Part shown: positions 1,458 to 58,999 of the stretch, piece after piece
How positions within the stretch are numbered: the first letter of the stretch is position 1
Layout: the number at the start of each line of letters is the position of its first letter
Notes under the pieces: generated by a model
The model's database searches: none
What the model was told of the DNA's origin: nothing
What the model saw: only the letters and a program-made list of their open reading frames with translations
Source: Streptomyces erythrochromogenes
Lineage (GTDB): Bacteria; Actinomycetota; Actinomycetes; Streptomycetales; Streptomycetaceae
DNA length: 64,000 nt
Assembly: GCF_036170895.1 (NCBI RefSeq)
Contig: NZ_CP108036.1
Span: 1,984,001 to 2,048,000 of the forward strand
Direction of reading: 5' to 3'
Translations under genes and position numbers: made by a program

Positions 1458-2318
1458 ATGACCGTCTCGACCCTCCCGGCGCTCGCCCCCGCCCCGCCCG
1501 GCTCTGCGGTGGCCGAAGCGTTCGCCCGGCTGGCCGACGTGTACGGCGGACTGCGCGTCGCCGAGCGAGCCGCGCACGAGCCCTCCCCTCGCGGTGCGGG
1601 GTGGGTCGGCGCGGACGAGCTGGCGGCCGGCGGGGCCGCCCTGGACGCCTTCCTCGCCTGGGACAACGCCCAGGTCCTGAGGGACTACGGGACCCAGGCG
1701 CGGCCCGATGTGGTCGCGAGCTTCGGGCTGCACCGGTACGCGTGGCCCGCCTGCCTGCTGATCACGCTCCCGTGGTTCCTCCACCGGCGGGTCCCCCGGC
1801 TCCCGGTCGCCGAGGTCGCCTTCCACCGGGCCCTCGGCCGGATGACCGTGCACGTCGAGAGCTTCGCCTGCCTGCCGGACGACCCGGCGGCCGCCCTCCC
1901 CGGGGCCCGGGTCGTGCCCGACGAGGAGGCGCTGCGCGAGGAGGTGCGGGCTGCGGTGGCCCAGCACCTCGAACCCGTGCTGGAAGGTTTCGGCCCGCGC
2001 ATGCGGCGCGGCCGCCGCGCCCTGTGGGGCATGGTCACGGACGAGGTCGTCGAGAGCCTCTGGTACGTGGGCCACCTGCTCGGCGAGGAACAGCGGACGA
2101 TGGCCGAACTGGAGGCGCTCCTGCCGGGCTCGACGGCCCCGTACACCGGGGCCGCCGGATTCCGTACGCTCGCGGGCCCCGACGGCCGCGAACTCCCCAC
2201 CCGGGACCGGGCCAGCTGCTGCTTCTTCTACACGATCCGCCCGGAGGACACCTGCGTCACCTGCCCCCGCACCTGCGACGCGGACCGCATCACCCGCCTC
2301 ACGGCCGAAGCCGCCTGA
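1458..2318 (+). CDS. FhuF-like (2Fe-2S) siderophore-iron reductase
   Basis: A 286-residue cytoplasmic protein with the FhuF C-terminal cluster motif, a Cys pair at residues 254-255, then ten residues, then Cys266 and Cys269 (CC-x10-C-x2-C). In FhuF proteins these cysteines hold a [2Fe-2S] cluster that reduces ferric siderophores to release iron. The upstream part is the usual helical FhuF-like domain. The ATG at 1458 sits just downstream of the iron box, so the gene is expected to be induced by iron starvation. No siderophore uptake or biosynthesis genes are nearby, so it probably acts as a stand-alone reductase. Confidence 0.88.
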   Translation: MTVSTLPALAPAPPGSAVAEAFARLADVYGGLRVAERAAHEPSPRGAGWVGADELAAGGAALDAFLAWDNAQVLRDYGTQARPDVVASFGLHRYAWPACLLITLPWFLHRRVPRLPVAEVAFHRALGRMTVHVESFACLPDDPAAALPGARVVPDEEALREEVRAAVAQHLEPVLEGFGPRMRRGRRALWGMVTDEVVESLWYVGHLLGEEQRTMAELEALLPGSTAPYTGAAGFRTLAGPDGRELPTRDRASCCFFYTIRPEDTCVTCPRTCDADRITRLTAEAA

Positions 2319-2566
2319 GCCCACCCGTACCGACTCGGGACGCGGCCGGTCCGGGCGACGGGGGCTAACCCACCCGTAGAGGTGGCCGTAATCGAACGCA
2401 ACTCCGGCCGCACGGGAGTCAGTTCGAGATACAACACCCTATCCGGCGGGCCCCGCCCCCCGATGGCGTCCACTTGCCCCGAAACCCGCGTGCACGGCGC
2501 ACCACCTGCGCCACTATGGCGCCCGGAAAACCGCACAGCCGCATACGCGAGGCAAGGGACATCCGC

Positions 2567-3625
2567 ATGAGACTGACCGACATATCGCTGGACTGGCTGC
2601 TGCCCGGCAGTCTGCTGATCCTGGGCGTACTTGCGGCGGTTGCGGTACTGGCACGTGGCAAGCGCGAGAGCGAGAAGGCCGCGGCCGACGACAGCTGGGA
2701 GCGCAGCGAGGAGCGGCGGCGGCGCAAGGAGGCCGTCTACGGCACGGCCTCCTACGTCCTGCTCTTCTGCTGCGCGGCGGTGGCCGCCGCGCTCTCCTTC
2801 CACGGGCTGGTCGGCTTCGGCCGGCAGAACCTCAACCTCTCCGGAGGCTGGGAGTACCTGGTCCCCTTCGGCCTCGACGGCGCCGCCATGTTCTGTTCGG
2901 TCCTCGCCGTCCGCGAGGCCAGCCACGGTGACGCGGCCCTCGGTTCGCGCATGCTGGTCTGGCTGTTCGCGGGGGCGGCCGCCTGGTTCAACTGGGTGCA
3001 CGCCCCGCGCGGTCTGGGTCACGACGGCGCTCCGCAGTTCTTCGCGGGGATGTCGCTCTCGGCGGCCGTCCTCTTCGACCGCGCCCTCAAGCAGACCCGC
3101 CGGGCGGCGCTGCGCGAACAGGGCCTGATCCCGAGGCCCTTGCCGCAGATCCGGATGGTCCGCTGGCTGCGGGCCCCCCGGGAGACCTTCGGCGCATGGT
3201 CCCTCATGCTGCTGGAGGGGGTGCGCACCCTCGACGAGGCCGTGGACGAGGTGCGCGAGGACAAGAAGGAGCGGGAGCAGGACCGGCACCGCAGGCGCGA
3301 CCAGAACCGGCTCGACCGGGCGCGCATCAAGGCGCTGGGCCGGCAGAACCGGGCGTTCGGGCGGTCCCGCGGCCGTCAGGTCGAGCTCCCGGAGCTGACG
3401 CAGGGAGCGGGCTCCGCGCCGGTCGGCGCGGAGCCGGCCATACCGGAATCGGGACAGCTGCCGCTACTCCTCCGGCCCTCCCTGCAGGCCGTGGGCCGCA
3501 CCGAACCCACTGACGTGACCGGCACCCGGACGGTGGACCTCACCGCCGAGGACGACACCCAGACCATTCCCCGGCTGGACTCGCTGGAGCGCAAACTGAA
3601 AGACCTGGAGCAGCAGTTCGGCTGA
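2567..3625 (+). CDS. DUF2637 domain membrane protein
   Basis: A 352-residue protein with about five hydrophobic segments in its first 165 residues, matching the Streptomyces DUF2637 family, followed by a long charged cytoplasmic tail. The tail contains a Lys/Glu/Arg-rich, coiled-coil-prone stretch (about 200-260), an acidic/Thr region, and a short C-terminal coil (LERKLKDLEQQ). The ATG at 2567 is chosen because AAGGGA lies upstream at normal spacing; the frame is open further upstream but has no good ribosome site. Family members occur in conjugative plasmids and in chromosomes, and their function is not established. A convergent hairpin terminator follows. Confidence 0.8.
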   Translation: MRLTDISLDWLLPGSLLILGVLAAVAVLARGKRESEKAAADDSWERSEERRRRKEAVYGTASYVLLFCCAAVAAALSFHGLVGFGRQNLNLSGGWEYLVPFGLDGAAMFCSVLAVREASHGDAALGSRMLVWLFAGAAAWFNWVHAPRGLGHDGAPQFFAGMSLSAAVLFDRALKQTRRAALREQGLIPRPLPQIRMVRWLRAPRETFGAWSLMLLEGVRTLDEAVDEVREDKKEREQDRHRRRDQNRLDRARIKALGRQNRAFGRSRGRQVELPELTQGAGSAPVGAEPAIPESGQLPLLLRPSLQAVGRTEPTDVTGTRTVDLTAEDDTQTIPRLDSLERKLKDLEQQFG

Positions 3626-3647
3626 CAGGTCCGGACAAGGGGACACC

Positions 3648-3681
3648 CCGCAGGGCCCGCCGGTTCAGGCGGGCCCTGCGG
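3648..3681. terminator. Bidirectional hairpin overlapping a stop codon
   Basis: A perfect 14-bp stem (3648-3661 with 3668-3681) and a 6-nt loop. The stop codon of the leftward HATPase gene (3665-3667) lies in the loop, so the terminator stem includes the last codons of that gene. Confidence 0.65.
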
Positions 3682-4222
3682 CGTACGGGGCCTCGCGGCG
3701 CCCGTCGAGCTCGAACCACACCACCTTGCCGCCGCCCAGGGCGAGCGCGTCCACGCCCCACTCGTCGGCCAGCGCCTCCACCAGCACCAGTCCCCGGCCG
3801 TGCGTACCGTCGTCGGCGGTCGGTACGTACGGCCGGGGTCGGCGTGCCGCGTGGTCGCGGACCTCCACCCGTAACCGTGCGGCCGTGAGGCTCGCGGACA
3901 CCTCCGCGCCCCGGTCGGTGTGGACGAGGGCGTTGGTGACGAGCTCCGTGATCAGCAGCTCGGCCACGTCCGTGGCCTCGGTCCTGCACCGGTGGCGCAT
4001 CAGCTCCCTGAGTGCCCGGCGGACCTCGCCCACCGCCTTCAGGTCCGCGCGGCGCACGCTCCGGGTGATGCGCAGCATGTCCACCGCTTCCCCGTCCTCG
4101 GCGGTGGACGGTTCGCGCGGTACCGGCGCCCCTCTCCTCCACAGCTTCCCCGTCTTCGCCCCCACCCGCACGGCGGTGTCCCTCCCGTGTCCGTTGCTCT
4201 CGAACAGGCCTACGGGATGCAT
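3665..4222 (-). CDS. HATPase (anti-sigma factor-like) ATP-binding protein
   Basis: A single-domain GHKL ATPase of the RsbW/SpoIIAB-like group abundant in Streptomyces, 185 residues from the ATG at 4222 (a GTG at 4243 is possible). Visible boxes are the N-box ELLITELVTNALVHT, the G1-like VEVRDHA and the glycine-rich G2 THGRGLVLVEALADEWGV. Such proteins act as serine kinases that sequester sigma factors or phosphorylate anti-anti-sigma partners, but no sigma or STAS gene is adjacent. It is the last gene of a leftward run behind the PP2C-like and PoxB-type genes. The gap to poxB is about 30 bp, so co-transcription is likely. Confidence 0.85.
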   Translation of the reverse strand: MHPVGLFESNGHGRDTAVRVGAKTGKLWRRGAPVPREPSTAEDGEAVDMLRITRSVRRADLKAVGEVRRALRELMRHRCRTEATDVAELLITELVTNALVHTDRGAEVSASLTAARLRVEVRDHAARRPRPYVPTADDGTHGRGLVLVEALADEWGVDALALGGGKVVWFELDGRREAPYAAGPA

Positions 4223-4253
4223 GCCCCCCGGGGGGATCCGCACTCCTGCGGGC

Positions 4254-5996
4254 TTACGGGCGGGGCACGTTGCGGAGGTTGGATCGAGCCATCTGGATCA
4301 TGCGCCCCACCCCTCCGTCGAGCACGATCTTGCTGGCCGAAAGTGCGAATCCGGTCACCATTTCGGCGCTGATCTTCGGCGGAATGGACAGGGCGTTGGG
4401 GTCGGTCACCACGTCCACCAGAGCGGGTCCCCGATGCCGGAAAGCGTCCTTCAAAGCACCGGTGAGCTGCTTGGGCTTCTCCACGCGCACCCCGTAGGCG
4501 CCCGCCGCGCGGGCGATCGCGGCGAAGTCCGGGTTCTTGTTCCGCGTCCCGTAGGAGGGGAGGCCGGAAACCAGCATCTCCAACTCGACCATTCCGAGGG
4601 ATGAGTTGTTGAAGAGCACTACTTTGACGGGCAGGTCGTACTGCACCAGGGTGAGGAAATCTCCCATCAGCATGGAGAAACCGCCGTCGCCGGACATCGA
4701 CACCACTTGACGGCCGGGATCGGTGAACTGCGCGCCGATGGCCTGCGGGAGGGCGTTGGCCATCGAGCCGTGGCTGAAGGAGCCGATGATGCGGCGCTTG
4801 CCGTTCGGGGAAAGATAGCGTGCCGCCCACACGTTGCACATGCCCGTGTCGACCGTGAACACCGCATCCTCGTCGGCCAGTTCGTCGAGGACCGAGGCCA
4901 CGTACTCGGGATGGATCGGGGTGTGCTTCTCGACCTTGCGGGTGTAGGCCTTCACCACCTCCTCCAGGGCGTCCGCGTGCTTCTTCAGCATCCGGTCCAG
5001 GAAGCGGCGGTCCGTCTTGGCCTTCACCCGCGCGTTGAGGGCGCGCAGGGTCTCCCGTACGTCTCCCCACACCGCGAGGTCCAACTGGGAGCGTCGGCCG
5101 AGGTGTTCGGGGCGGATGTCCACCTGGACGATCTTCACGTCGTCGGGCAGGAAGGCGTTGTACGGGAAGTCCGTGCCGAGCAGGACCAGCAGGTCGCACT
5201 CGTGGGTGGCCTCGTAGGCCGCGCCGTAGCCGAGCAGCCCGCTCATGCCGACGTCGTAGGGATTGTCGTACTGGATCCACTCCTTGCCGCGCAGGGCGTG
5301 CCCGACGGGGGCCTTGACCCGGCCGGCGAACTCCATGACCTCGGCGTGTGCGCCGGCGGTGCCGCTGCCGCAGAAGAGCGTCACCCGGTCCGCCTCGTCG
5401 ACCAGCCGGACCAGCTTCTCGATCTCACCGTCGCCGGGCCGCACGGTGGGCCGGGCGGTGACGAGGGCGTGCTCCACCGCCTTCTCCGGGGCCGGCTGGG
5501 CGGCGATGTCCCCGGGCAGCGCGACCACGCTGACGCCGCTGCGGCCGATGGCGTGCTGTACGGCGCTCTGGAGCAGCCGCGGCATCTGCTGCGGGTTGGA
5601 GATCAGCTCGCTGTAGTGGCTGCACTCGCGGAACAGCTGGTCGGGGTGGGTCTCCTGGAAGTAGCCCAGGCCGATCTCGCCGGAGGGGATGTGCGAGGCG
5701 AGCGCGATGACCGGGGCCATCGAGCGCTGGGCGTCGTACAGCCCGTTGATCAGGTGCAGGTTCCCCGGGCCGCAGGAGCCGGCGCAGGCGGCGAGGCGGC
5801 CGGTGATCTGGGCCTCGGCGCCCGCCGCGAAGGCCGCGGTCTCCTCGTGGCGGACCTGGATCCACTCGATGCCGTCGGTCCGGCGGATCGCGTCCACCAC
5901 CGGGTTGAGGCTGTCGCCGACGACTCCGTACATCCGCCGCACGCCGGCGCGCACGAGGATGTCGACGAACTGCTCCGCCACGTTCTGCTTGGCCAT
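4254..5996 (-). CDS. poxB: PoxB-type TPP-dependent pyruvate oxidase/dehydrogenase
   Basis: A 580-residue TPP enzyme close in length to E. coli PoxB (572). The N-terminal PYR domain has the catalytic glutamate in RHEETAAFAAGAEA; the middle domain is the nucleotide-binding type; the C-terminal PP domain has the ThDP motif GDGGFSMLMGDF...LFNNSSLG, nearly as in PoxB. PoxB decarboxylates pyruvate to acetate and CO2 with electrons passed to quinone; acetolactate-synthase-like relatives cannot be fully excluded. The MAKQN start (5996) is taken from conservation of the N-terminus; the GGGAGG before it is too close, so the Met at 6005 is an alternative. It is 28 bp downstream of the PP2C-like gene, in the same direction. 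Confidence 0.85.
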   Translation of the reverse strand: MAKQNVAEQFVDILVRAGVRRMYGVVGDSLNPVVDAIRRTDGIEWIQVRHEETAAFAAGAEAQITGRLAACAGSCGPGNLHLINGLYDAQRSMAPVIALASHIPSGEIGLGYFQETHPDQLFRECSHYSELISNPQQMPRLLQSAVQHAIGRSGVSVVALPGDIAAQPAPEKAVEHALVTARPTVRPGDGEIEKLVRLVDEADRVTLFCGSGTAGAHAEVMEFAGRVKAPVGHALRGKEWIQYDNPYDVGMSGLLGYGAAYEATHECDLLVLLGTDFPYNAFLPDDVKIVQVDIRPEHLGRRSQLDLAVWGDVRETLRALNARVKAKTDRRFLDRMLKKHADALEEVVKAYTRKVEKHTPIHPEYVASVLDELADEDAVFTVDTGMCNVWAARYLSPNGKRRIIGSFSHGSMANALPQAIGAQFTDPGRQVVSMSGDGGFSMLMGDFLTLVQYDLPVKVVLFNNSSLGMVELEMLVSGLPSYGTRNKNPDFAAIARAAGAYGVRVEKPKQLTGALKDAFRHRGPALVDVVTDPNALSIPPKISAEMVTGFALSASKIVLDGGVGRMIQMARSNLRNVPRP

Positions 5997-6024
5997 GCCT
6001 CCCATCCAGCCATGCCCGCGCCGG

Positions 6025-8064
6025 TTACGCCTCCCAGACGGCGGCGGCCGTGCGGTCGTCGGCGTACCCCTTGAGGCGGAGCTGGGTGTCCGCGAGGAAC
6101 GCGGCGAGGCCGGGCGGCTCCGGCTCGGCCCAGCGCGCGGCGAGCTCCGCCTGGAGGGCGGCCTCCTCCCGCATGGGCTCCGCCAGGCCGCCCGAGCACA
6201 GGAGCAGGGTGTCCCCCGGTCTGGCCACGGTTGCCCGGAACCGGAAGACGCTGCCGGGCTCGCCGACCGCGTCGGCCGGCTCGGCGGCATCGGCCGCGGG
6301 GGCCGGTGCGGGCGCGGCCGGGCCGGTGGGCTCCAGGTCCTGCCATTGACCCGAACGGAGCCGGAACAGCCCGCCCGCGCCGGATCCGAAGCACACCCGG
6401 GTGCGGCATTGCGGGTCCACCGGGAGCAGCAGCCCGCGCAGTCCCGCCGTGTACTCCTCCTCCGCGAGCCCCAGCTCGGCGGCGCGGGCCCGCAGGCGTC
6501 CGTAGCCGCGGTCGGTGAGCCGCTGCAGGCCCGAGCGCAGGGCGTCGCGGCGCCCGGCCCGGATGTCGTCGGCGAGCCTGCCCTGGCTGCGGCCGACGGC
6601 CGCGGCGACCGTGCGGCACAGTTCGGCGGCGGCCTCGGCGGCGCCGGGCGCGGCCCGGTCCCCGCCGGCGAGGGTCACCAGGACCAGGGCGTCGTCACCG
6701 CTGCCGAAGCGGGCGGTGAGCAGGAAGTCCCGGCGGCTCTCGCCGCGGTAGCGGGCGGAGTCGCCGCGCAGGGAGGCGGCCCGGAGGGTGTAGGCGCCGT
6801 AGCGGGCGCCCTCCAGGACGGTGTCCGGGACCAGCGCGTCGAGGGCGGCCGGGTCCGCGGGCGGGAGCGGGCCCGGTTCGGCGGCGTAGGTGGGGGCGCG
6901 GTCGCCGAGGTGCCGTACTTCGGGCCGCTGCTGCGGCGCCGCGGCCTCCGGGACGGGGGCGGCGGCGGGGGCGCGTACCGGTTCGGGCGGGGCTACGGGC
7001 TGCGGCACCTCCTCGGTGCGGTCCTCCCGGCGCGGCGCCTGGACGCGCCGGGTGGGCAGCTCCGGTCCGGGCGCCGGCGGCACCTCGACGCCCCCTAGGG
7101 CGTAGCCGGTGGCGCCGCCGGTCCGCGGATCGCGCGGCTGTGCGCCGTGCCAGGGCGGGGCCGGGGGCGGTGGCGGGACGTACCGCTCGCCGGGCGGCGC
7201 GGCGGCTTGCGCGGCGGGCGGCGCGACCGGCGGCGGACCGTACGGTGGCGCGGCGGGCGCGCCGGAAGGCACGCCCCGGGCCTGCGGCGGTGCGAGCGGC
7301 CCGAACCCCGGGCCGGACGTGGCCCCTTCCGCGGCGGGCGGCCCGGGCGGCGGACCGAGCCGCTCACCGGGCGACGGCGCCCGCGGTGGCCCGGCCGGTA
7401 CGTCGGCAGCCGCACCCGGAGCCGGATCCGCCCCGGCCGTTTCACCCGGAAGGGGCGCCCGTGCGGGCGGCGGGCCGTACGCCTCGCCGGACAACGGCAC
7501 CTGCACCGCCGGCTGGTCGAGCGCAGGGCCCGGCGGCTGCGCCGGGGCGTACCGTCCGCCGGGCGGAGCGTCCGCAGTGGGCCCCGGCGGCGGACCGCTC
7601 CGGTCGCCGGGCGGGGCCCACTCCCTGGCGGGCGGCACGGCCGGTGGCGCCGGCGGCACGGCCGGCGCGTCACCGGCGACGGGCGGAGCAGGCGGCGGAA
7701 CGTAGCGCTCAGAGGGCGACGCGGGCAGCGTGTCGGGGACCGGGCGCGGTGCGGGGACCGGACCCGCCACCGGGGGCCGGGCGGGCTCCCGCCGGACCGC
7801 GTCCGGCAGCGGCGGCCGCGCGGGCAGGCCGGCGTCCGGGTCCGGGCGGGGGGCCGGCAGCGGCCCGCGTCCCGGCCCGGGTCCGGGCTCGGCCTCCCGG
7901 ACCGGCTCCGGCGGCGCGGGGGGCGGCGCCCCGGCCGGGTCCCCCGTCACTCCGGCCGCCGACCGGAACCGGTTGTCGAGGGTGTCCCCCGGGTCGGGTG
8001 CCGGTCCCGCTTCGGGGTCCTCGTAGAGCTTCTGCCACCAGTCGTCCGCGCCCTGCTGACTCAT
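6025..8064 (-). CDS. Proline-rich protein with degenerate PP2C-like domain
   Basis: A 679-residue protein. After a short Trp-containing N-terminus (DDWWQKLYEDPEAG), about 370 residues are a low-complexity Pro/Ala/Gly region with several copies of a (G/S)ERYxPPP-like unit. The last 255 residues resemble the PP2C domain used by Streptomyces stress phosphatases, ending in a recognisable ADDRTAAAVWE. The acidic metal-ligand positions look changed: where active enzymes have a DG pair, this protein has TLAGGD and LLLCSGGLAEP. It may be a pseudophosphatase that binds rather than hydrolyses; that is inference. It heads the leftward unit with poxB and the HATPase gene. Confidence 0.75.
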   Translation of the reverse strand: MSQQGADDWWQKLYEDPEAGPAPDPGDTLDNRFRSAAGVTGDPAGAPPPAPPEPVREAEPGPGPGRGPLPAPRPDPDAGLPARPPLPDAVRREPARPPVAGPVPAPRPVPDTLPASPSERYVPPPAPPVAGDAPAVPPAPPAVPPAREWAPPGDRSGPPPGPTADAPPGGRYAPAQPPGPALDQPAVQVPLSGEAYGPPPARAPLPGETAGADPAPGAAADVPAGPPRAPSPGERLGPPPGPPAAEGATSGPGFGPLAPPQARGVPSGAPAAPPYGPPPVAPPAAQAAAPPGERYVPPPPPAPPWHGAQPRDPRTGGATGYALGGVEVPPAPGPELPTRRVQAPRREDRTEEVPQPVAPPEPVRAPAAAPVPEAAAPQQRPEVRHLGDRAPTYAAEPGPLPPADPAALDALVPDTVLEGARYGAYTLRAASLRGDSARYRGESRRDFLLTARFGSGDDALVLVTLAGGDRAAPGAAEAAAELCRTVAAAVGRSQGRLADDIRAGRRDALRSGLQRLTDRGYGRLRARAAELGLAEEEYTAGLRGLLLPVDPQCRTRVCFGSGAGGLFRLRSGQWQDLEPTGPAAPAPAPAADAAEPADAVGEPGSVFRFRATVARPGDTLLLCSGGLAEPMREEAALQAELAARWAEPEPPGLAAFLADTQLRLKGYADDRTAAAVWEA

Positions 8065-8115
8065 GCCCTCATTCTCGGCCTCCGGTGGGGGCCGAAAACG
8101 CCGAATGCGCGAAAA

Positions 8116-8145
8116 GGGTCCACCGGGCCGCCGCCCGGTGGACCC
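8116..8145 (-). terminator. Intrinsic terminator of the subtilisin gene
   Basis: A 13-bp perfect stem (8116-8128 with 8133-8145) with a CGCC loop, followed on the minus strand by TTTTC. It lies 21 bp past the subtilisin stop. Confidence 0.8.
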
Positions 8146-8166
8146 CTTCCGTCCTGCCCGTACGGA

Positions 8167-11100
8167 TCAGCGGACGTCGTACGCCCGCGCGACCGTCTGG
8201 GTGACCGTCGCGCCCTTCGCGTCGGTCAGTTCGACCCTCAGCGAGACCGGCTTGCCGGAGGCCCCGGCGTGGTCGACGACCGCCGTCCAGGTGCCGTCGC
8301 GCCGGCCGACCTTCGCCTGCGTCCAGTTCTCGCCGTCGTAGGAGTACGCCAGCGCGGCCGACGTGAGCGCTCCGGGCACGTAGCCCGCGTGGCCGGTGAC
8401 GCCCAGCCCGATCGTCTGGCCGTTCTCCGCCGCGACGGTCTTCATGCCGTCGAGCGGGGCCGCGTACCGCGGGAAGAGGAACGGCAGGCCCTGCGAGTAC
8501 GCCGACGCGTCGAGCTTCGAGGTGAAGCCCCAGGTCGTGCTGACCGAGGTGGACCGCTGCCAGGTGCGCGAGGGCGGGCCGATCTTCTCGATGGACTGGG
8601 TCAGTTCGTAGCGGCCCTCTTCGGCCGGGACCTCGAAGACCCCGAACGGGTACCAGCTGTCGCCGATGACCTCGCCGTCGCGCCGGAGCCGGAGGTTGCC
8701 GATGTCCCCGAAGGAGCCCGGCTGCGCGGCGTGCGCGCTGTCGCCCCACATGGCGGGCGCGAAGCCGATCAGGTTCGCCTGCCGTTCGGCGGCGAGGGTC
8801 TCCCGGCCGGCGGGGTCGCGCGGCGCGACCGGGCCGGTCACCCCGTCGTACCAGGCGGCCTTGCTCCTGGCGCCCTTGGCGTAGGTGCGCTGCTCGCCCG
8901 TCATGAACTCGCCCCAGGGGAAGCTGCTGGAGAGCAGTTGGTCCCAGGCGGTGTCCCCGGCGGAGTAGAACTCGGTCCGCTTGCCGGGCGTCGCGACGGT
9001 CTCGATCCCGCCGAAGTACACGGCGCTGCCGATGGGCCGGTAGGCGCCCGCCATGTCGACGAAGTCGGCGGCCACGCCCATGGAGTTGTAGGTGGACTCG
9101 ACCTGCCCGAGGTCGCGGTCCCGAACCCGGTAGGTGCGGCCGCCCTTGATCTCTCCCGTCTCGGGGAAGGCCAGCGAGTAGACGTACGGGCTCTTCGCCG
9201 TGGCCTTCCAGGACAGTGCGACCTTGCCGGCGGCGAGCCTGGCCAGGAGCGCCTTGGCCTCGGCGGCCTCGATGGTCATCGTGGGCAGCGAGCCGCCCGC
9301 GTAGCCGGTGAAGGCGGCCCAGCGGCCCGGGGCCTCGCGGTGGGCGAGGACGGCCTTGGCGCCGGCGGCCTGCGCGTTCTGCGCGACCTCGTGGAGGGCG
9401 CCGTCCACGGCCTTCACCAGGACGACGGCGTCCTTGGCGCCGGCCGCGGCGAGTTCCGCGGGGGTGCCGGAGCCGGCGTCGACGAGCGGGGCGCCGCCGG
9501 TGCCGTCGAGGTTGTCGCTGCCGGTGGACGCGGTGAGCGGGTGCAGGACCGGTCCGCCGGCGACCTTCAGCTCGGAGACCAGCGGGGCGGCCGCCCGCCA
9601 GTAGCCGGCGAATTCGAAGTCGCCGTCCTTCGCGCGGCCTTCGACGGAGGAGTAGAAGCCGCGGATGGTGCGGCCGCCCATGGCGGTTCCGGCGTGCAGC
9701 CAGGTGTCGTCCCAGCTGCGGGCGAAGCCGAGGGTGGTGTTGCGTGCCTCGACCGGCCTGTCGGCCTCGACGGACAGGCGCCCGGCCTTGCGGGCGTCGA
9801 GCACGATCGTGGTGTCCTTCTTCACCTCGGTCTGGGGGCGGCCGAGGTAGGTGAGGGAGTCGATCATCTCCGCGCCCTCGCCGGGGTCGGCGGTGGCGAC
9901 GAAGGCGGACAGGAAGTAGGCGCCGGGGCGGACCCGGTAGACCTGGTCGGTGGCGCCGTCGTTGAACCGGCGCTCGCCGGAGGCGTCGTCGGTGCCGATC
10001 ACGTCCAGCGAGGAGGGACCGGCTGCGGGCTTGCCGGCCCGGTCGAGGAGCTTGACCCGCAGGGTCACCGTCTCGGGCTCGACGTGGAGCGAGAAGGGGG
10101 TGGAGACGCGTACGCCGTCGGCCGTGGCGACGACCCGGCCGGTGACGTCCCCGTACTGGGCGCGCTCCAGCTTGGCGGCCGGGTCGAGGGCGAGGGGCAC
10201 GGTGACGGTGGCGCCGGCCGGGACGGTGACGGTGCGCCGGTCGAGCCGGGCGATCTGGCTGCGGACGGCGGATCCGTCGTTGCCCGTGACCTTCTCGACG
10301 GCGAGGTGCAGCGTGACGGGGTTCTTGCCGAGGTTGGTGTACGGGACCTCGACGTTTCGGCGGTCGCTGCGGTCCTGCGGCCAGTTGTACGTGCCGCCCT
10401 GGACGGCGGGCGCGCCGGTGACGGCGGTGTCGAGGGCGGCCTTGACGTCGAGGCGGCCGGCGCCGGCCTCCCGTACGTCCCCGGGGACCTTGGTGTTCGC
10501 GGAGCCGACGAGGGCGGCCTTGATCTGCTGCCCGGTCCAGTCGGGGTGGCGCTGCTTGACGACGGCGGCGGCGCCCGCGACGTGCGGGGTGGCCATGGAG
10601 GTGCCGGACATGGACTGGTAGGCGTACACCCCGCGGCCGCCCGCGGCGGCGGCGGAGATGCCGACGCCGGGTGCGGCGATCTCTGGCTTGAGGGTGTGCT
10701 GCAGACCCGCCGGGCCGCGGCTGGAGAAGGGGGCCGTGGTGTCGTCGCGGTCGACTGCGCCGACCGTCAGCACGCTGGGGGCGCAACCGGGCGAGGAGAC
10801 CGTGTTGTTGCCGGGGCCCGAGTTGCCCGCGGCGACGACGAAGAGCGGGCCCTGCCGGGAGAGCCGTTCGGCGGCCGCGGCGAGCGGGTCGTCGCAGGCG
10901 GTCTGGGAGGGGTCGCCCAGGCTCATGGAGACCACGTCGGCCTTGGACTCGACGGCCCACTCCATGCCGGCGATGATCCACGAGTCGAGGCCGTAGCCCC
11001 CGTCGTTGAGGACCTTGCCGCTGAGCAGTTCCGCGCCGGGGGCGACGCCCTTCTTGGCTCCGCCGCTCTCGGCTCCGGAGCCGCCGACGGTGGAGATGGT

Positions 11101-18175: not shown

Positions 18176-18247
18176 TCAGCCGGAGACCACGGGGGTGACA
18201 TCGATGGTCTTCTGAGTGCGGGCAGCGCCCTGCGCAACGACAGTCAT
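18176..18247 (-). CDS. Possible small ORF upstream of rsgA
   Basis: ATG at 18247 to TGA at 18176 encodes 23 residues beginning MTVVAQGAARTQKTIDV and ending in VVSG. It is preceded by GGAGGTGA at ideal spacing, one of the best ribosome sites in the window, 72 bp upstream of rsgA. It could be a leader peptide or a small protein. It has no Cys, no run of identical codons and no hydrophobic segment, so no mechanism is suggested by the sequence. Confidence 0.5.
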   Translation of the reverse strand: MTVVAQGAARTQKTIDVTPVVSG

Positions 18248-18358
18248 CAATGAACTCACCTCCGGGTCAGCACGTGGCCGTGGTCCCTCACCACTCGGTG
18301 GGAACGGACCGACTTTAACAAGCCCCCTCGCGTCGGGGCCACTTCTTTTTCCGCACCG

Positions 18359-18901
18359 TCAGCCGAGGGTCGGGCCGACCCGCCGGGCCAGCACCTGTCC
18401 CGGCCAGTCCCCGGACAGGAAGCCCTCGGTGGGGGCGAAGCCGTTGCGCTCGTAGAACGCGACCAGTTCGCCGCCGCCCCCCGCCCAGCAGTCGACCCGC
18501 AGGAGGGCGACGCCGGCCCGCCGTGTCTCCTCGGCGGCGTGCGCGAGCAGCGCCGCCCCGATGCCGCGGCCCGCGTGCCGCCGGTCGGAGACGAGCAGCC
18601 GCACGTACCGCTCGGGCTCCCCGGCCGGCGCGATCGGCAGCTGCGGGCTGGGGCCGTGGTCCAGCACCAGGGCCCCGACGGGCGCCCCGTCCAGCTCTGC
18701 GACGTACGGGGTGTTCTCGGTCGTGTACCGCTCGACCCGCTCCGGGCCGCCGGCGCGCTGCGAGTACGGCGCCGTGCCCCACTGCTCGGTGTTGCCGCGG
18801 GCGTTCATCCAGGCCACGGCGCCGTCGAGCATGTCCAGCAGGGCCGGTGCGTCCGCCGGGCCGCCCGGCCGGATCCGTATCGCGTGCGCGGTGTCGTTCA
18901 C
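18359..18901 (-). CDS. GNAT family N-acetyltransferase
   Basis: A 180-residue GNAT protein. Residues about 98-125 carry the acetyl-CoA-binding motif [20 protein letters not shown], and the C-terminal half has the [13 protein letters not shown] signature. It starts with ATG ([12 protein letters not shown]). It lies upstream of the rsgA unit in the same direction, separated by a weak hairpin around 18322-18339. Substrate unknown; small-molecule or protein amino groups are usual acceptors. Confidence 0.87.
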
Positions 18902-47422: not shown

Positions 47423-48700
47423 TCACGACACCGGCCGGGAGTCCTCCCACATCGACTCGAACTCCTCCCGGTAGGTCGTGAAGAGTCCGTGGTCCGCGTC
47501 CTTGGGCACCCCGCGGCCGCCGCCCCGCAGCACCAGCACGGGCGATTCCATGCCGCGCGCCCGCCGCAGGTACGACTGGACCACCGCGATGCCCGAGGCC
47601 TGCCCCTCCACCAGGTAGGCGGTGAAGCGCGGCGTCTCGTCGAAGACGTGGATCTCGAAGCGCGAGGGGTCCCGCAGGCCCGCCCGCACCCTTCGCACGT
47701 GCAGGATGTTCATCTCGACCGAACGGCTCAGCTCGCCCTTGCGCAGCCCCAGCTCCCGCTCGCGCCGTTTGACCGCGCTGCTCGCCGGGTTCAGGAACAG
47801 CAGCCGAACCCGGCAGCCCGCCTCCGTCAGCCGGACGAGTCTTCGCCCCGAGAAGTTCTGCACCAGCAGGTTGAGGCCTATCCCGATGGCGTCGAGCCGC
47901 CGCGCGCCCCCGAAGAGGTCCTCGGCCGGCAGGTTGCGCTGGAGGCGCACCCGGTCCGGGTGGACCGAGACGACGTCCGCGTACCGGTCGCCCACCAGGT
48001 CCTCGACGGCGTCGATCGGCAGCCGGTCCGCGGCGGGACTGCCGGAGCCCCCGCCCAGCACCTCCAGCAGCCGCGCCGAGGCCCGCTCCGCCTGCTCCAG
48101 CACGGGCCGCGACAGCGCCCGGTTGCGGGAGACGACGTTGCGGGTGACCTCCAGCTCGTCCAGGGCCAGCTCGATCTCGCGCCGGTCGTCGAAGTACGGC
48201 TCGAAGCAGGGCCAGTGCTGGACCATCAGCTCCCGCAGCTGCGGCAGGGTCAGGAAGCTCAGCACGTTGTCGTCGGCGGAGTCGAGCAGGTAGCCCTTGC
48301 GGCGGCTGACCTCGCGCACGGCAACGGCCCGCTGCACCCACTCCTGCCCGGCGGGCCCGGCGGCCGCGACGACCCAGTCGTCCCCGCCGTGCACCGGTTC
48401 GTAGATCGGCCGCAGCACCGCGCCGACCACCGACCGCAGCCGCTGTTCGATCAGGTTGAGCCAGATGTACGCCCGGCCCGCCCGCTGCGCCCGCGTACGG
48501 ACCTCGCTCCAGGCCTCCGCGCCCCAGTCCAGTTCGGCTCCGGCCCGCGCGTTCCCGGCCTCCGCCGGCCCGCCCGCCAGGGAGACCGCCCCTGCCGGGA
48601 TCCCCGTCGGCGCCCCGCCGGGGACACCACCTGGGGCGTCCGCCGGGCCACCCTCGTGACTGCTGTCACCAGGGGGCAGCTCCAGACCTCCCGAGCTCAC
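47423..48700 (-). CDS. SAV2148-type HEPN domain protein
   Basis: A 425-residue protein matching the Streptomyces family named SAV2148 HEPN domain-containing. A Gly/Pro/Ala-rich N-terminus precedes a helical region. An R-x5-H (Arg156 to His162, RELMVQH) is the kind of spacing seen in catalytic HEPN RNases, but a fold assignment by eye is weak. The GTG at 48700 is the most plausible start, with AAGGCGG upstream. Genes beside it: the exonuclease downstream, glgX divergent upstream. Confidence 0.8.
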   Translation of the reverse strand: MSSGGLELPPGDSSHEGGPADAPGGVPGGAPTGIPAGAVSLAGGPAEAGNARAGAELDWGAEAWSEVRTRAQRAGRAYIWLNLIEQRLRSVVGAVLRPIYEPVHGGDDWVVAAAGPAGQEWVQRAVAVREVSRRKGYLLDSADDNVLSFLTLPQLRELMVQHWPCFEPYFDDRREIELALDELEVTRNVVSRNRALSRPVLEQAERASARLLEVLGGGSGSPAADRLPIDAVEDLVGDRYADVVSVHPDRVRLQRNLPAEDLFGGARRLDAIGIGLNLLVQNFSGRRLVRLTEAGCRVRLLFLNPASSAVKRRERELGLRKGELSRSVEMNILHVRRVRAGLRDPSRFEIHVFDETPRFTAYLVEGQASGIAVVQSYLRRARGMESPVLVLRGGGRGVPKDADHGLFTTYREEFESMWEDSRPVS

Positions 48701-54829: not shown

Positions 54830-56596
54830 ATGGCGGCCGAGAACCCCGGGGTGCTCCAGCAGCGGTACTGGCTGGACCAGGCCTGGGAGGAACACGAGGG
54901 AACCGTCTACTGGTCGGCCTTCGACCAGAAGGAACGGGCGGAGGTATTCGTCCAGCAACTACAGCCCCTGGCGCAGCGGACGGGGTCCGAGCCGTTACTG
55001 GAACCGTTCCCGGACCGGGCGGCGGTGGCCGGGCCCCGGCCACCGTCGGGGAAGGGCTGGACGAAGTCCTCGAAGGCGGCCGCGAGAGCACGGGCGAGCA
55101 AGGACCAGATCGCCGTACCGGGTGATCTTATGCGGCAGGTCCGCCGGGTGTCGTCGCCGCGCAGTCCACATCTCCTCGCCGTTCACGACGTGTTCGAGCA
55201 CGGCGGCTCCGTCTGGGTCGTGATGGATCCCGTCCAGCCCATCTCCCTGCGACAGTTACTGAAGGAGCAGGGCAAGCTCGGCGGCGCGGGGGCCGCGTAC
55301 CTCGGGGTGGAGATGGCGGCCGCACTCCAGGAGATGCACGACGCGGGCATCGCGCACGGCCGGTTCGACCCCCGCAGCGTGTTCTTCCGTGGCGACCGCA
55401 CCCTGGCCCTCGCCGGCTACGGACTGGCCCCCTCCCCGCACGACGGGCAGGGGCCGTGGCTCCGGCCCTGGCGTCCCGATTCCCGCTACACCGCGCCCGA
55501 ACTGGCCCGGCACACGGCCGACCGGCCTCCCACCCCGAGCTGCTCGGGAGACCTGTGGGCCCTGGGGATGGTCCTCTACGAGATCCTCATGGGCAGCCGC
55601 AGTCTCCTGTACGGGCCGCTGCGCAGGTTCCGCTGGATCCGGAAGGTGCACGACGCCCGCCCTCCCCGGGTCCCCGGGGAGGCCGAGCTCACCCTGCTCC
55701 TGGCGGTCCTGCTCTCCCCGCATCCGGGCGCCCGGACCTCCGCGGCCGCAGCCGCGGTCTCGCTGCGCCGGCTCGCCGGGCTGCACGAACCGATGCCCGG
55801 CGGGCACTGGGCCGTCGCCAACCGGCCGCCGCGCTCCTTCTCGGAGCACCTGCGGGAACAGCTGGTGCACGTGTTCACCACCGCCACCAGCCGGGCCATG
55901 GCAGCTTTCCTGACGGGCGTGCTGGTCACCCTGGTCACGCTCTTCGGCTGGCACCTGGTGAGTCGGCCCTCGGCCCCGGACCCGCTGACCGCCCTGCTGT
56001 CCGGGGCGGTGTTCGGCGCCGCGTACGGGACGGTACGAGTGGTCCTGATGGCGAGCTGGCACTGTCTGGCACTGCTGCGCGGGGCCCCCGCACCGGACGC
56101 CCAGGCCGCGCCCCGGCCCCCCGCCGCGGCGGGCGCGCCTTCCGGCGCGGCGCAGGCTCCGGAGCCCGCGGCATCCGCCGCGCCGCCCGCGCACCTGCTC
56201 AGGCTGCCCGCCTGCACTCCCCGGCTGACGCTGCTCGACGCCCCCGCGCACGTGGGGCGGGCCGTCCGGCTGGAGTTCACCCTCGACGTGCCCCCCGGTC
56301 ATCCCTGGCACCGGGCCTCCGGGGACGCCCGCGCGCCCGCCGAGCTGATGCTGGTGGCGTCACCGCGCGGAGCAGGCTCGACCCTCGTGCCGCCGTGCGC
56401 GGGCTATCGCGTACAGGCACCCGGAGGGGAGGCCGCGGCCTTCACGTTCACCGCGCACGCACCGGGGCGGCACCGGCTGCGGATCACCGTGTACGACCGC
56501 GCGCACGGTGTGGTGCTGCAGGAACTCGACGCGACCCTGGAAGCCGAGGAGCCCGCCCTCCTCGGCTCCGCCCGGCACGATGGACCGGAGTTCTGA
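54830..56596 (+). CDS. Membrane-anchored pseudokinase
   Basis: A 588-residue protein with GGAGGGGGCGAG before ATG 54830. Residues 30-300 follow the protein kinase fold (SPRSPHLLAVHDVFEHGGSVWVVMD, LLKEQGKLGGAGAAYLGVEMAAALQEMHDAGIAHG, then WRPDSRYTAPELARH and SGDLWALGMVLYEILMG). Catalytic residues are lost: the beta3 Lys position is Gln42, HRD is HGR (176-178) and DFG is GYG (196-198). Two membrane helices (about 356-378 and 385-415) are followed by a beta-rich domain to the end. It starts an operon with the CHAT protease, overlapping it by 17 bp. Likely a sensor or scaffold. Confidence 0.78.
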   Translation: MAAENPGVLQQRYWLDQAWEEHEGTVYWSAFDQKERAEVFVQQLQPLAQRTGSEPLLEPFPDRAAVAGPRPPSGKGWTKSSKAAARARASKDQIAVPGDLMRQVRRVSSPRSPHLLAVHDVFEHGGSVWVVMDPVQPISLRQLLKEQGKLGGAGAAYLGVEMAAALQEMHDAGIAHGRFDPRSVFFRGDRTLALAGYGLAPSPHDGQGPWLRPWRPDSRYTAPELARHTADRPPTPSCSGDLWALGMVLYEILMGSRSLLYGPLRRFRWIRKVHDARPPRVPGEAELTLLLAVLLSPHPGARTSAAAAAVSLRRLAGLHEPMPGGHWAVANRPPRSFSEHLREQLVHVFTTATSRAMAAFLTGVLVTLVTLFGWHLVSRPSAPDPLTALLSGAVFGAAYGTVRVVLMASWHCLALLRGAPAPDAQAAPRPPAAAGAPSGAAQAPEPAASAAPPAHLLRLPACTPRLTLLDAPAHVGRAVRLEFTLDVPPGHPWHRASGDARAPAELMLVASPRGAGSTLVPPCAGYRVQAPGGEAAAFTFTAHAPGRHRLRITVYDRAHGVVLQELDATLEAEEPALLGSARHDGPEF

Positions 56597-57902
56597 ACCG
56601 TTGAACCTCCAGATCGACCTGTCCGCCCCGCAGGACCCCAGCCGCGGCTACCGGCTGCTCGCGGAACCCCCGACCTGCGGAGTGCGGCACCTGACCGTCT
56701 GCATCCGAACGCCCTCCGACACCGTGACCACCATCAGTCTGTGGGGCCACCCGGACGTCCTGCCGCAGCCCCGCACTGGCTCGTACTACACGGTGCTGGA
56801 GACCGGCGCGGAGGAGCTCAGGACGCTGTCGGCCCGCCTCATATCCCGCTGGCAGGAGTTCGTCGCGTACCAGCCGTCCCGGCAGCAGGGGCCGCTCGAC
56901 GTCCTGCCGTACACCAACATCGCCGATCTCAGCGGCCGTTCTGCCGTCGAGGTGCTGGCCCAGGTGAGCGAGCTGGCCGAGGAGGGCCAGTACCTGCTCG
57001 ACGAGCTCCTCGCCGGAGACGGCCGCGGACTCGCCGAGGTGCGGCGCCGACTGCTGGACCTGCTCGGGCGCCGGGACCTGCGGATCCGCTTCGACTCCGA
57101 TCTCGACCTGCCCTGGCCCCTCCTGGCAGTCGGCGCCGGTCCAGGCGCCGGAGCCCCCGGTGAGGAGGATCCGTTCGCCACGTTCCTGGGGCACCGGCAC
57201 GAGATCGAGGCGCTCTCCGGCGCCTACCCGACCGCCTACTGGTACGAGTCCACCCGCACCCGCCCCGCCTCCAGCGCCTGGACGGACGAGGAACTGGCGG
57301 ACAACCTGCTCGCGAGCGACGTCCTCAAGCTCCTCGACGACCGGACGGAGCTCACCGAGCGCTTCCACGGCAGCGACCTGCTGGCGACGCTGCACCAGCC
57401 GGTCGTCGACCACGACCTGATGTACTTCTACTGCCACGGCGAGTACGTCAGGCAGGGGGACCGGACCTGGCAGGCCCTGCGCCTCAGCGATCCCATGCCG
57501 ATCGACGCGTCGATCGTGGACCGGTACCGCAAACGGCACACCGAGGCCAACGCCCGGGACGGCGCGCTCTGCCTGTTCCACCCCATGGTCCTGCTCAACG
57601 TGTGCTTCGCCGGGGCTCCGGCCACCGCGGGCTACGCCGGCATCGCCGCGGCCCTCGTCAAGCACGGCGCCGTCGGGGTCCTGGCACCGTCCATCGCCAT
57701 GCCCCAGGTCTTCGGAGCCGAGTTCGCGCTGCAGTTCCTGACCCGCTACGCGGTCCAGGGCCTGCCCGCCGGACGGGCCGTGCTGGAGACCGTGCGCTGG
57801 TTCGCCACGACGTACCGCAATCCGCTGGCCCTGACATACGGCCTCGTCTGCGGGATGGACAGCCGTCTGCCCGCACCCCAGGAAGGACCGACGAGTTCAT
57901 GA
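56580..57902 (+). CDS. CHAT domain caspase-like protease
   Basis: A 440-residue protein. The N-terminal part (about 1-200) is beta-rich and helical and resembles the adapter region of actinobacterial CHAT proteins. The C-terminal CHAT fold carries the catalytic dyad His286 (MYFYCHGEYV) and Cys342 (MVLLNVCFAGAP), then AAALVKHGAVGVLAPS. It starts at ATG 56580 inside the kinase gene (17-bp overlap) and its stop overlaps the hydrolase ATG. CHAT proteases act in eukaryotic separase-like folds, in gasdermin-linked defence and in signalling. Its substrate is unknown. Confidence 0.85.
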   Translation: MDRSSEPLNLQIDLSAPQDPSRGYRLLAEPPTCGVRHLTVCIRTPSDTVTTISLWGHPDVLPQPRTGSYYTVLETGAEELRTLSARLISRWQEFVAYQPSRQQGPLDVLPYTNIADLSGRSAVEVLAQVSELAEEGQYLLDELLAGDGRGLAEVRRRLLDLLGRRDLRIRFDSDLDLPWPLLAVGAGPGAGAPGEEDPFATFLGHRHEIEALSGAYPTAYWYESTRTRPASSAWTDEELADNLLASDVLKLLDDRTELTERFHGSDLLATLHQPVVDHDLMYFYCHGEYVRQGDRTWQALRLSDPMPIDASIVDRYRKRHTEANARDGALCLFHPMVLLNVCFAGAPATAGYAGIAAALVKHGAVGVLAPSIAMPQVFGAEFALQFLTRYAVQGLPAGRAVLETVRWFATTYRNPLALTYGLVCGMDSRLPAPQEGPTSS

Positions 57903-58999
57903 CCGAACGAAGCCCGCGACGGGTGCACACGCGGCGCCCGGTACGGCCCACGGCCCTGGCGCCCGACGCACTGACCACCGTCGACCTGGACAAGGACGGG
58001 TGGCTGGTGTCCGCCGCCACGGGCCGGCCGGTGCGCGCCGACCGGCTGGCCCGGTACCTGGCCGAACGGCTCAGTCCACCGTCCTGGGCCACCGACATCA
58101 TCGTGTACGTGCACGGCTGGCGGACGGGCAGTCGCTCGGCCATACGCTCGGCGCAGCGCCTGCTCGCCCTCATGGACCGCCAGCACACGGCTCGCGCGAC
58201 GCTCTACCCGGGGCTGCGCGAACGCTACGCGCCGTGGACGGTCGTGGTGCGCTGGCCCTCGTCGTCGCTGATCACCAAGGGCGGCTACGAGAAGATCCGC
58301 GAGCGGGCCCACGCGATGAGCTCCGGCGGCACCGGATACGCCCCGCACGTCCTGGGCCACCTGCTGGGATACCTGCACGCCGAGCGCGGCGATCCGTCTG
58401 ACCGGACCCTGCGCACCCGGGGCGGCCAGTACCTGCACCTGGTGGGCCACTCCTTCGGCGGCCGCTTCCTGTGCGAGGCGGTGATCCGGGCCGCGGACAC
58501 CGAGCAGGGCGGCACCCTGGGCTGGAGCACCACCGTCCACCCCTCGCGCCCGTTCACCGTCGACACCCTGACGGTCTTCCAGATGGCCGCCCCCACCGAG
58601 GCCTTCGAGTCCCTCTTCAAGCGGCTGCGCCCCGGGCCCGTGGGGCACACCTCACCGGTCGGCGGGCCGCTGGTGTTCACCCACTCCCGCTTCGACCGGG
58701 CGACGGGATTCTGGCACCTGCTGGGCGAGCGCAAGCCCGGCATCGGGCACTCAGGCATGCGCCTGTCGCGCGCGGGCGCCGGACTCGCGCCCAACGACGT
58801 GTGGGCCACCCGGCTGCTTCGTGCCGACACGCCCTATCCGCACACGTCGCTGGACCACGCCTTCGTGAACGTCGACGCGAGCTGGCGGTACCGGAGCACC
58901 AGGATCAACCCGGTCGGGGCGCATTCCGACTTCTACCATCCCGAGACGGCTCACCTGCTGCTCAGTCTGGCCGACCACTCCCGTCCCGCGTCGGCGTAA
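57899..58999 (+). CDS. Alpha/beta hydrolase of the pseudokinase-CHAT operon
   Basis: A 366-residue hydrolase-fold protein. Oxyanion region IIVYVHGWRTGSRS and nucleophile elbow VGHSFGGRF (Ser185) are intact; candidate acid and His lie in DHAFVNVDAS and HSDFYHPETAH near the C-terminus. An N-terminal 60 residues is basic and Pro-rich (RSPRRVHTRRPVRPTA). It begins at ATG 57899 overlapping the CHAT stop, so the three genes form a single coupled operon. It could be a lipase/esterase effector; the sequence does not show its substrate. Confidence 0.82.
   Translation: MTERSPRRVHTRRPVRPTALAPDALTTVDLDKDGWLVSAATGRPVRADRLARYLAERLSPPSWATDIIVYVHGWRTGSRSAIRSAQRLLALMDRQHTARATLYPGLRERYAPWTVVVRWPSSSLITKGGYEKIRERAHAMSSGGTGYAPHVLGHLLGYLHAERGDPSDRTLRTRGGQYLHLVGHSFGGRFLCEAVIRAADTEQGGTLGWSTTVHPSRPFTVDTLTVFQMAAPTEAFESLFKRLRPGPVGHTSPVGGPLVFTHSRFDRATGFWHLLGERKPGIGHSGMRLSRAGAGLAPNDVWATRLLRADTPYPHTSLDHAFVNVDASWRYRSTRINPVGAHSDFYHPETAHLLLSLADHSRPASA

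Follow-up and report, generated by a model that had tools for sequence, protein, structure and literature searches.

The 64,000-nt stretch of Streptomyces erythrochromogenes DNA analysed here (contig NZ_CP108036.1, positions 1,984,001 to 2,048,000; hereafter the window) contains a three-gene operon for a pseudokinase with a C-terminal beta module, a CHAT (caspase-like) protease and an alpha/beta hydrolase. By comparison with relatives, the constant unit was shown to be the beta module together with the protease and the hydrolase, and this unit is fused in frame to varied N-termini. We put at about even the chance that it is a modular conflict cassette, probably serving phage defence or regulated cell death: a sentinel or bait carrying the tag would control CHAT, and CHAT would unleash the hydrolase. 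The parts of the operon are as follows (window coordinates; lengths in amino acids, aa).

54830..56596, + strand: gene 1 (588 aa), pseudokinase, two hydrophobic stretches, proline/alanine-rich linker and C-terminal beta module.
55124..55747, + strand: kinase-like domain in gene 1, the variable (swappable) part, without VAIK Lys, HRD Asp and DFG Asp.
55886..56050, + strand: two hydrophobic stretches in gene 1, residues 353-378 and 388-407, possible membrane helices (Kyte-Doolittle only).
56201..56557, + strand: beta module in gene 1, an Ig-like beta sandwich; the constant cassette starts here.
56580..57902, + strand: gene 2 (440 aa), CHAT (caspase-like) protease, with His286 at 57435-57437 and Cys342 at 57603-57605.
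57899..58999, + strand: gene 3 (366 aa), alpha/beta hydrolase, with Ser185 at 58451-58453, Asp266 at 58694-58696 and His342 at 58922-58924.

Genes 1 and 2 overlap by 17 bp and genes 2 and 3 by ATGA, so the coordinates and both overlaps bear out the overlapping operon described in an earlier note on this DNA. We scanned 295 Streptomyces genomes, counting hydrolase matches at E<1e-40 and adjacency by hand. Of 26 strong matches, 25 adjoined a CHAT match, with CHAT identity as low as 23-30%; the exception was genome G079, which has a partial hydrolase, and the CHAT of G195 is divided between two contigs. Adjacency of hydrolase and CHAT exceeds chance. With one genome scanned for each species of GTDB 220, 146 relatives were obtained, and the best 80 were fetched with their flanks. 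Hydrolase, CHAT and beta module were all present in 76 of these 80; the four without the full set were locus L165 and three loci that lie at a contig end or close to one (L099, L168 and L175). The neighbourhood on which the earlier note had made its system depend was thus found for protease and hydrolase, and it takes in the beta module. Counts over 88 unique loci below refer to the window operon, the 76 named-species relatives and 11 further loci, with identical copies removed.

The C-terminal ~120 residues of gene 1 are common to relatives. Its beta domain was modelled as an Ig-like beta sandwich (mean predicted local distance difference test score 90.4), and fold comparison of the module returned generic Ig-like sandwiches only. 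We ran a profile of the module on 22 genomes picked for holding the cassette, scoring 150 candidates per genome. There were 24 strong matches, every one beside a CHAT-hydrolase pair, and one marginal match (E 8e-4).

Gene 2 gave no match reaching cut-off in Pfam, PADLOC or NCBIfam, its sole match being chance-level, and its protein had no match to PF12770 (CHAT) at E<=1. PF12770 is precomputed on 7 of the 25 listed homologues; the L084 CHAT falls below its cut-off (16.9 against 24 bits), and profile A3 matched CHAT chains in the PDB weakly (8rot, E 9e-4; 8d9h, E 0.43). His286 and Cys342 are kept in all 88 unique loci, in agreement with the intact His-Cys dyad noted earlier. Judged by this motif and by its PF12770-bearing homologues, gene 2 is a CHAT protease.

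Gene 3 was without match at E<=1 in Pfam, PADLOC and NCBIfam. It has a nucleophile elbow and a Ser-acid-His series in canonical order. Ser185 is kept in 88/88 loci, so the intact hydrolase nucleophile of the earlier note stands; Asp266, His273 and His342 are kept in 87, the remaining locus having a gap. Conservation and strand order in the model point to Ser185-Asp266-His342 as the probable triad. The nearest folds were DDHD, PGAP1 and lipases. A search of solved structures by sequence with the hydrolase gave one match, which we judged to be chance.

The kinase domain of gene 1 matched Pfam PF00069 (E 8.7e-14, residues 99-306). In a 23-row alignment of the pseudokinase family, all 22 scorable rows have Gln for the VAIK Lys, Arg, Gln or His for the HRD Asp, and Gly for the DFG Asp. 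A kinase fold without catalytic residues, as first noticed, was therefore confirmed. The second hydrophobic stretch (388-407) is marginal, at 1.57 against a Kyte-Doolittle threshold of 1.5. Through its kinase fold, gene 1 also matches kinase models of PADLOC-DB 2023, such as PD-T4-6 (1e-17). This window-type pseudokinase is the N-terminus of 6 of the 88 unique loci and one of 19 N-terminal labels. The earlier picture of a system made of membrane pseudokinase, protease and hydrolase consequently holds for the last two, which are constant, and fails for the first.

N-terminal labels were assigned from BLAST clusters and from Pfam on representatives, not on every member, and 81 of the 88 rows were labelled. 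The seven without a label were L082, L107, L111 and L129 (contig ends), L103 and L149 (degraded) and L172 (odd order; its CHAT and hydrolase lie downstream of a beta-NNH1-NACHT gene). L158, L163 and L177, for example, took the label of their clusters, and within the AAA/TPR group only TPR was seen in L073, L076 and L160. One AAA/NB-ARC-TPR group accounts for 29 of the 88 loci, a second NB-ARC/TPR group, some with a MinD/ParA domain, for 22, and a PknG-like N-terminus for five. HsdR, an ECF-like sigma factor, trypsin/VMAP-M0 and caspase occur at two loci each. Single loci carry TIR, a SigB-like sigma factor, HTH-AAA-ankyrin, a second pseudokinase, EAD2-VMAP, each of two zinc-ribbon forms, a Tle1-like phospholipase, another NB-ARC, DUF6879 and ribosomal protein L4. 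On a quick CHAT and hydrolase tree the 19 labels need at least 20 changes. At L083, L174 and L242 the N-terminus of gene 1 is caspase-like (in L083, two stretches by eye); as a separate CHAT gene stands beside it, each of these operons has two caspase-family proteins.

The second pseudokinase, that of L123, matches PknB chains at 2e-6 over residues 147-251 and had no Pfam match at E<=0.01; its HRD and DFG are lost, as judged by eye. Its similarity to the window pseudokinases, when profiles were compared, was weak (probability 35, E 4e-4), and we therefore treated the two as separate lineages.

The boundary of the constant unit is sharp in a seven-locus clade with a Shimodaira-Hasegawa-like approximate likelihood ratio support of 100 and weak inner branches. 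L108, L110, L111, L112, L120 and L123 are 68-83% identical in CHAT and 75-87% in the hydrolase, L113 being nearly a copy of L110. The N-termini of the six are TIR (L108), HsdR (L110), a contig-truncated unknown (L111), SigB-like (L112), ECF-like (L120) and the second pseudokinase (L123). We compared L112 with L110, L120, L108, L123 and L111 by BLASTN (plus strand, matches >120 bp). The DNA match to L112 begins at 7324-7328, where the beta module starts at 7321, and runs to 10011-10029, where the hydrolase stops. Over this cassette of ~2.7 kb DNA identity is 76-81% in the five comparisons and nothing matches outside it, L111 having only about 230 bases ahead of the beta module.

A second kind of comparison concerned L072 (DUF6879 label) against L078, L152, L130 and L135 (AAA/TPR group). 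Both flanks are 78-87% identical in DNA, gene 1 is without a DNA match >150 bp, and the N-termini share no protein cluster; for these reasons gene 1 was probably replaced in place at this site. In several genomes (L072, L074, L078, L079) a gene of ~1060 aa and downstream genes of ~293, 132 and 165 aa flank the cassette. The site next to the ~1060-aa gene looks like a fixed chromosomal site, DNA having been compared for L072, L078 and L152. By gene sizes, L085 (G079, 2037-6769) is at the same site, with only a partial hydrolase.

Some of the fused partners resemble ordinary cell proteins. In L081, which lies in the single-contig genome G159, ribosomal protein L4 is fused in frame to the beta module. 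This L4 is nearly full-length (Pfam positions 1-187 of 190, E 5e-65), and an untagged second L4 of the same genome is 88% identical to it in protein and 85.1% in DNA (536/630). The guanine-plus-cytosine (GC) content is 66.3% in the L4 part, 53-56% in the cassette and 68-69% in the flanks, and a tRNA-Pro gene lies ~0.5 kb upstream. In L112, from the same genome as L070, a SigB-like sigma factor bears the beta-module tag. The untagged copy in that genome, 88% identical in both protein and DNA (720/818), ends where the linker begins in the tagged one, so that the tag follows the native C-terminus. In L110 a tagged HsdR (Pfam) stands behind hsdM- and hsdS-like genes, those two named by eye; VELK, GSGKT and DEAH are visible in its translation, and a regular-expression motif search returned GSGKT for L113 only. 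HsdR-beta fusions also occur in L113 and L247, with N-termini 96-97% identical; L253 is a copy of L113 and L254 a copy of L110.

We favour the modular cassette because of the linkage in 76/80 relatives, the catalytic residues kept in 88/88 loci, the beta module's strong matches all standing beside CHAT and hydrolase, the swapping of N-termini, the sharp breakpoint, a hydrolase fold close to that of lipases, and partners that look like baits as well as sensors. The N-terminal protein would be a sentinel: it could sense a ligand (NB-ARC/AAA-TPR, PknG-like) or act as a bait made in the likeness of a cell component that is a target of invaders (sigma factor, ribosomal protein L4, HsdR, kinase). 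CHAT would be kept inactive, or positioned, by the beta module. Binding, modification or breakage of the sentinel would activate CHAT, which might cut the hydrolase, the linker or a different protein; the hydrolase would then attack membrane lipids or another ester, and the cell would be stopped. In the window copy the sentinel would be the dead kinase, probably membrane-tethered. Trigger, cleavage and killing are steps that we infer. An undescribed conflict or death system, which the earlier note had suggested, is a reasonable class for the operon, once the pseudokinase is no longer taken as a fixed component.

Plant NLR proteins with integrated decoys, and pseudokinase decoys, are immune proteins fused to a copy of an attacked host component. 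Like them, the cassette is joined to copies of host components; the proteins differ, and the trigger in our case is a predicted one. More tentatively, and with somewhat less than an even chance, the cassette could be the bacterial equivalent of immunity by integrated decoys: a mobile alarm tag, joined to the C-terminus of whole host proteins or of their copies (sigma factor, L4, HsdR), that would make each one a tripwire and kill the cell once an invader interferes with that protein. Among the papers listed by our search, which left bioRxiv and most subscription papers outside, we found no description of bacterial integrated decoys or of CHAT with a hydrolase or fused partners.

Several observations weigh against the sentinel cassette. 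L165 has a hydrolase without CHAT or beta module, and L172 (4156-7620) inverts the normal order, its beta module standing ahead of NNH1-NACHT in one frame. At 11 of the 88 loci the distance from CHAT to hydrolase falls outside -20..150 bp. Foldseek support for a lipase was weak (best E 6.7e-4, template modelling score 0.30 by query). In a class-wide draw of 394 genomes strong hydrolase matches occurred in four only, all Streptomyces (G000, G088, G173 and G547, the last in two pieces); the other 25 of the 29 genomes listed had weak, partial matches. The cassette was found in 0/50,697 phage records and no relative occurred among viral contigs, so that the phage or viral origin which we had sought was not found. 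Labels below the Pfam cut-off are DUF6879, both zinc ribbons, ECF region 2 of L120, and AAA and HTH of L119. L4, SigB and nine other labels are known from single loci each, and the commonest partners, the AAA/NB-ARC/TPR groups (51/88), are not bait types. The HsdR copies and the PknG-like L154 and L167 keep active-site motifs, so not every N-terminus is a dead decoy. The TIR, caspase and Tle1-like N-termini are enzymes equally suited to an effector role.

These same enzymes speak for the strongest rival, in which the variable N-terminus is the output: CHAT would cut beside the beta module and free a held-back effector, with the hydrolase as a second effector. The tagged sigma factor, apparently of full length, could be understood as a pro-sigma, and the authors who described the EACC1 system interpret its variable domains likewise in the text of their paper (PMC7159879). 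We nevertheless consider this unlikely, since the 51 loci of the AAA/NB-ARC/TPR groups look like sensors, dead kinases and L4 would be poor effectors, and the constant part is the hydrolase, not the N-terminus.

In another explanation the genes are operon hitch-hikers with a developmental or proteostasis role, the fusions supplying only a promoter and anchoring. Tight spacing fits this (the gene 1 stop is within 60 bp of the CHAT model start in 85/88 unique loci), as does the setting of the window operon among ordinary genes. It accords poorly with the in-frame fusion and with a patchy distribution, strong matches (E<=1e-30) being found in 33 of 392 Streptomyces genomes. The differing gene 1 between conserved flanks (L072 against L078, L152, L130 and L135) and the low-GC cassette on the high-GC L4 also count against it, and we regard it as improbable. 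That the sigma-factor and L4 fusions are assembly artefacts, with only the NLR-like and kinase forms real, is very improbable, for although L081 (L4), L112 (SigB) and L120 (ECF-like) are single loci and the last two come from shotgun assemblies, each fusion is one open frame, L081 lies within a single-contig genome, HsdR-beta occurs in three distinct copies (L110, L113, L247), a sigma region 2 is also present in L159, which belongs to a distant clade, and DNA similarity begins at the same place in five comparisons.

Among described systems EACC1 and VMAP come closest, and the window operon belongs to neither. As described in the main text of Kaur et al. 2020 (PMC7159879), EACC1 combines a constant caspase with as many as 50 variable domains, EF-Tu included; in VMAP systems caspase-superfamily peptidases always come with a neighbouring alpha/beta-hydrolase gene, and the catalytic residues are disrupted in most kinase domains of vWA components. 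Kaur et al. 2021 (PMC8195603) adds EACC2. As whole words, CHAT and pseudokinase are absent from the main texts of both papers. Like EACC1, whose variable domains include STAND NTPases and EF-Tu (PMC7159879), the cassette has a constant caspase-superfamily protease, many alternative domains and hosts among multicellular actinobacteria. In EACC1, however, a transmembrane protein precedes a caspase that is itself fused to the variable domain, whereas in the cassette CHAT has a gene of its own (440 aa), it is the beta module that carries the variable part, and the constant components include a hydrolase gene. No EACC1 match occurred in the 12 window proteins scanned with Pfam, which includes a model of it.

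With VMAP-MoxR-vWA systems the cassette shares a caspase-superfamily peptidase and a neighbouring alpha/beta-hydrolase gene (PMC7159879). The two meet in L077/L147, where the N-terminus is EAD2-VMAP-M0-VMAP-C and the contig ends just after the hydrolase. They differ in that VMAP-C is only one of the 19 N-terminal labels, and neither VMAP, MoxR nor vWA was among the 12 scanned window proteins. In Craspase, with its TPR-CHAT/Csx29, a CHAT protease is under partner control, as we predict for the cassette; here CHAT stands alone and there is no CRISPR effector among the scanned genes. Genes 2 and 3 had no match at E<=1 in PADLOC-DB 2023, which covers known anti-phage systems. We class the cassette with the kind in which a constant caspase-family protease has a variable partner, and a defence role is predicted.

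The operon is of larger interest than first stated, since it exemplifies a portable cassette whose putative sentinels can be exchanged. If the proposed reading is true, bacteria can turn a cellular protein into an immune sentinel through fusion of one cassette, and the list of fused proteins is a readable catalogue of the targets of actinobacterial invaders. The tag would be testable on chosen baits, and a hydrolase family without a Pfam match would be placed in a likely cell-death role.

The named-species scan extended the cassette to Kitasatospora, Actinacidiphila, Amycolatopsis, Actinokineospora, Kibdelosporangium, Nocardia and Paractinoplanes. The hydrolase was found in 3 of 72,556 plasmid records, two of the three with a beta module. 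A decaying copy occurs in L149 (Streptomyces philanthi 23Af2, 7031-10019), where CHAT and hydrolase are each in two out-of-frame pieces. On contig C1 of G052 two equal-score hydrolase fragments (18246-18719 and 8647845-8648318) lie in opposite orientation near the ends of 8.67 Mb, probably within terminal inverted repeats.

The scanned neighbours of the window operon are ordinary genes. According to the Pfam scan, one flank has two alpha-amylase-family genes, which we take to be treX- and treY-like, and an MFS transporter; the other has LysR, a pyridine-nucleotide oxidoreductase, an M14 peptidase and GNAT. We sought an empty site beside treY in 31 genomes (23 treY loci compared) and found no clear case. 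The flank of L211, the nearest treY relative, gave no match to LysR. In L222 a LysR-like stretch (56% identity) follows shortly after treY, and L214 has a LysR-like gene (67% identity) on the opposite side of treY. Close to the amylase-family genes of the window, at 47423-48430 on the - strand, lies a HEPN_SAV2148 and DUF5919 gene.

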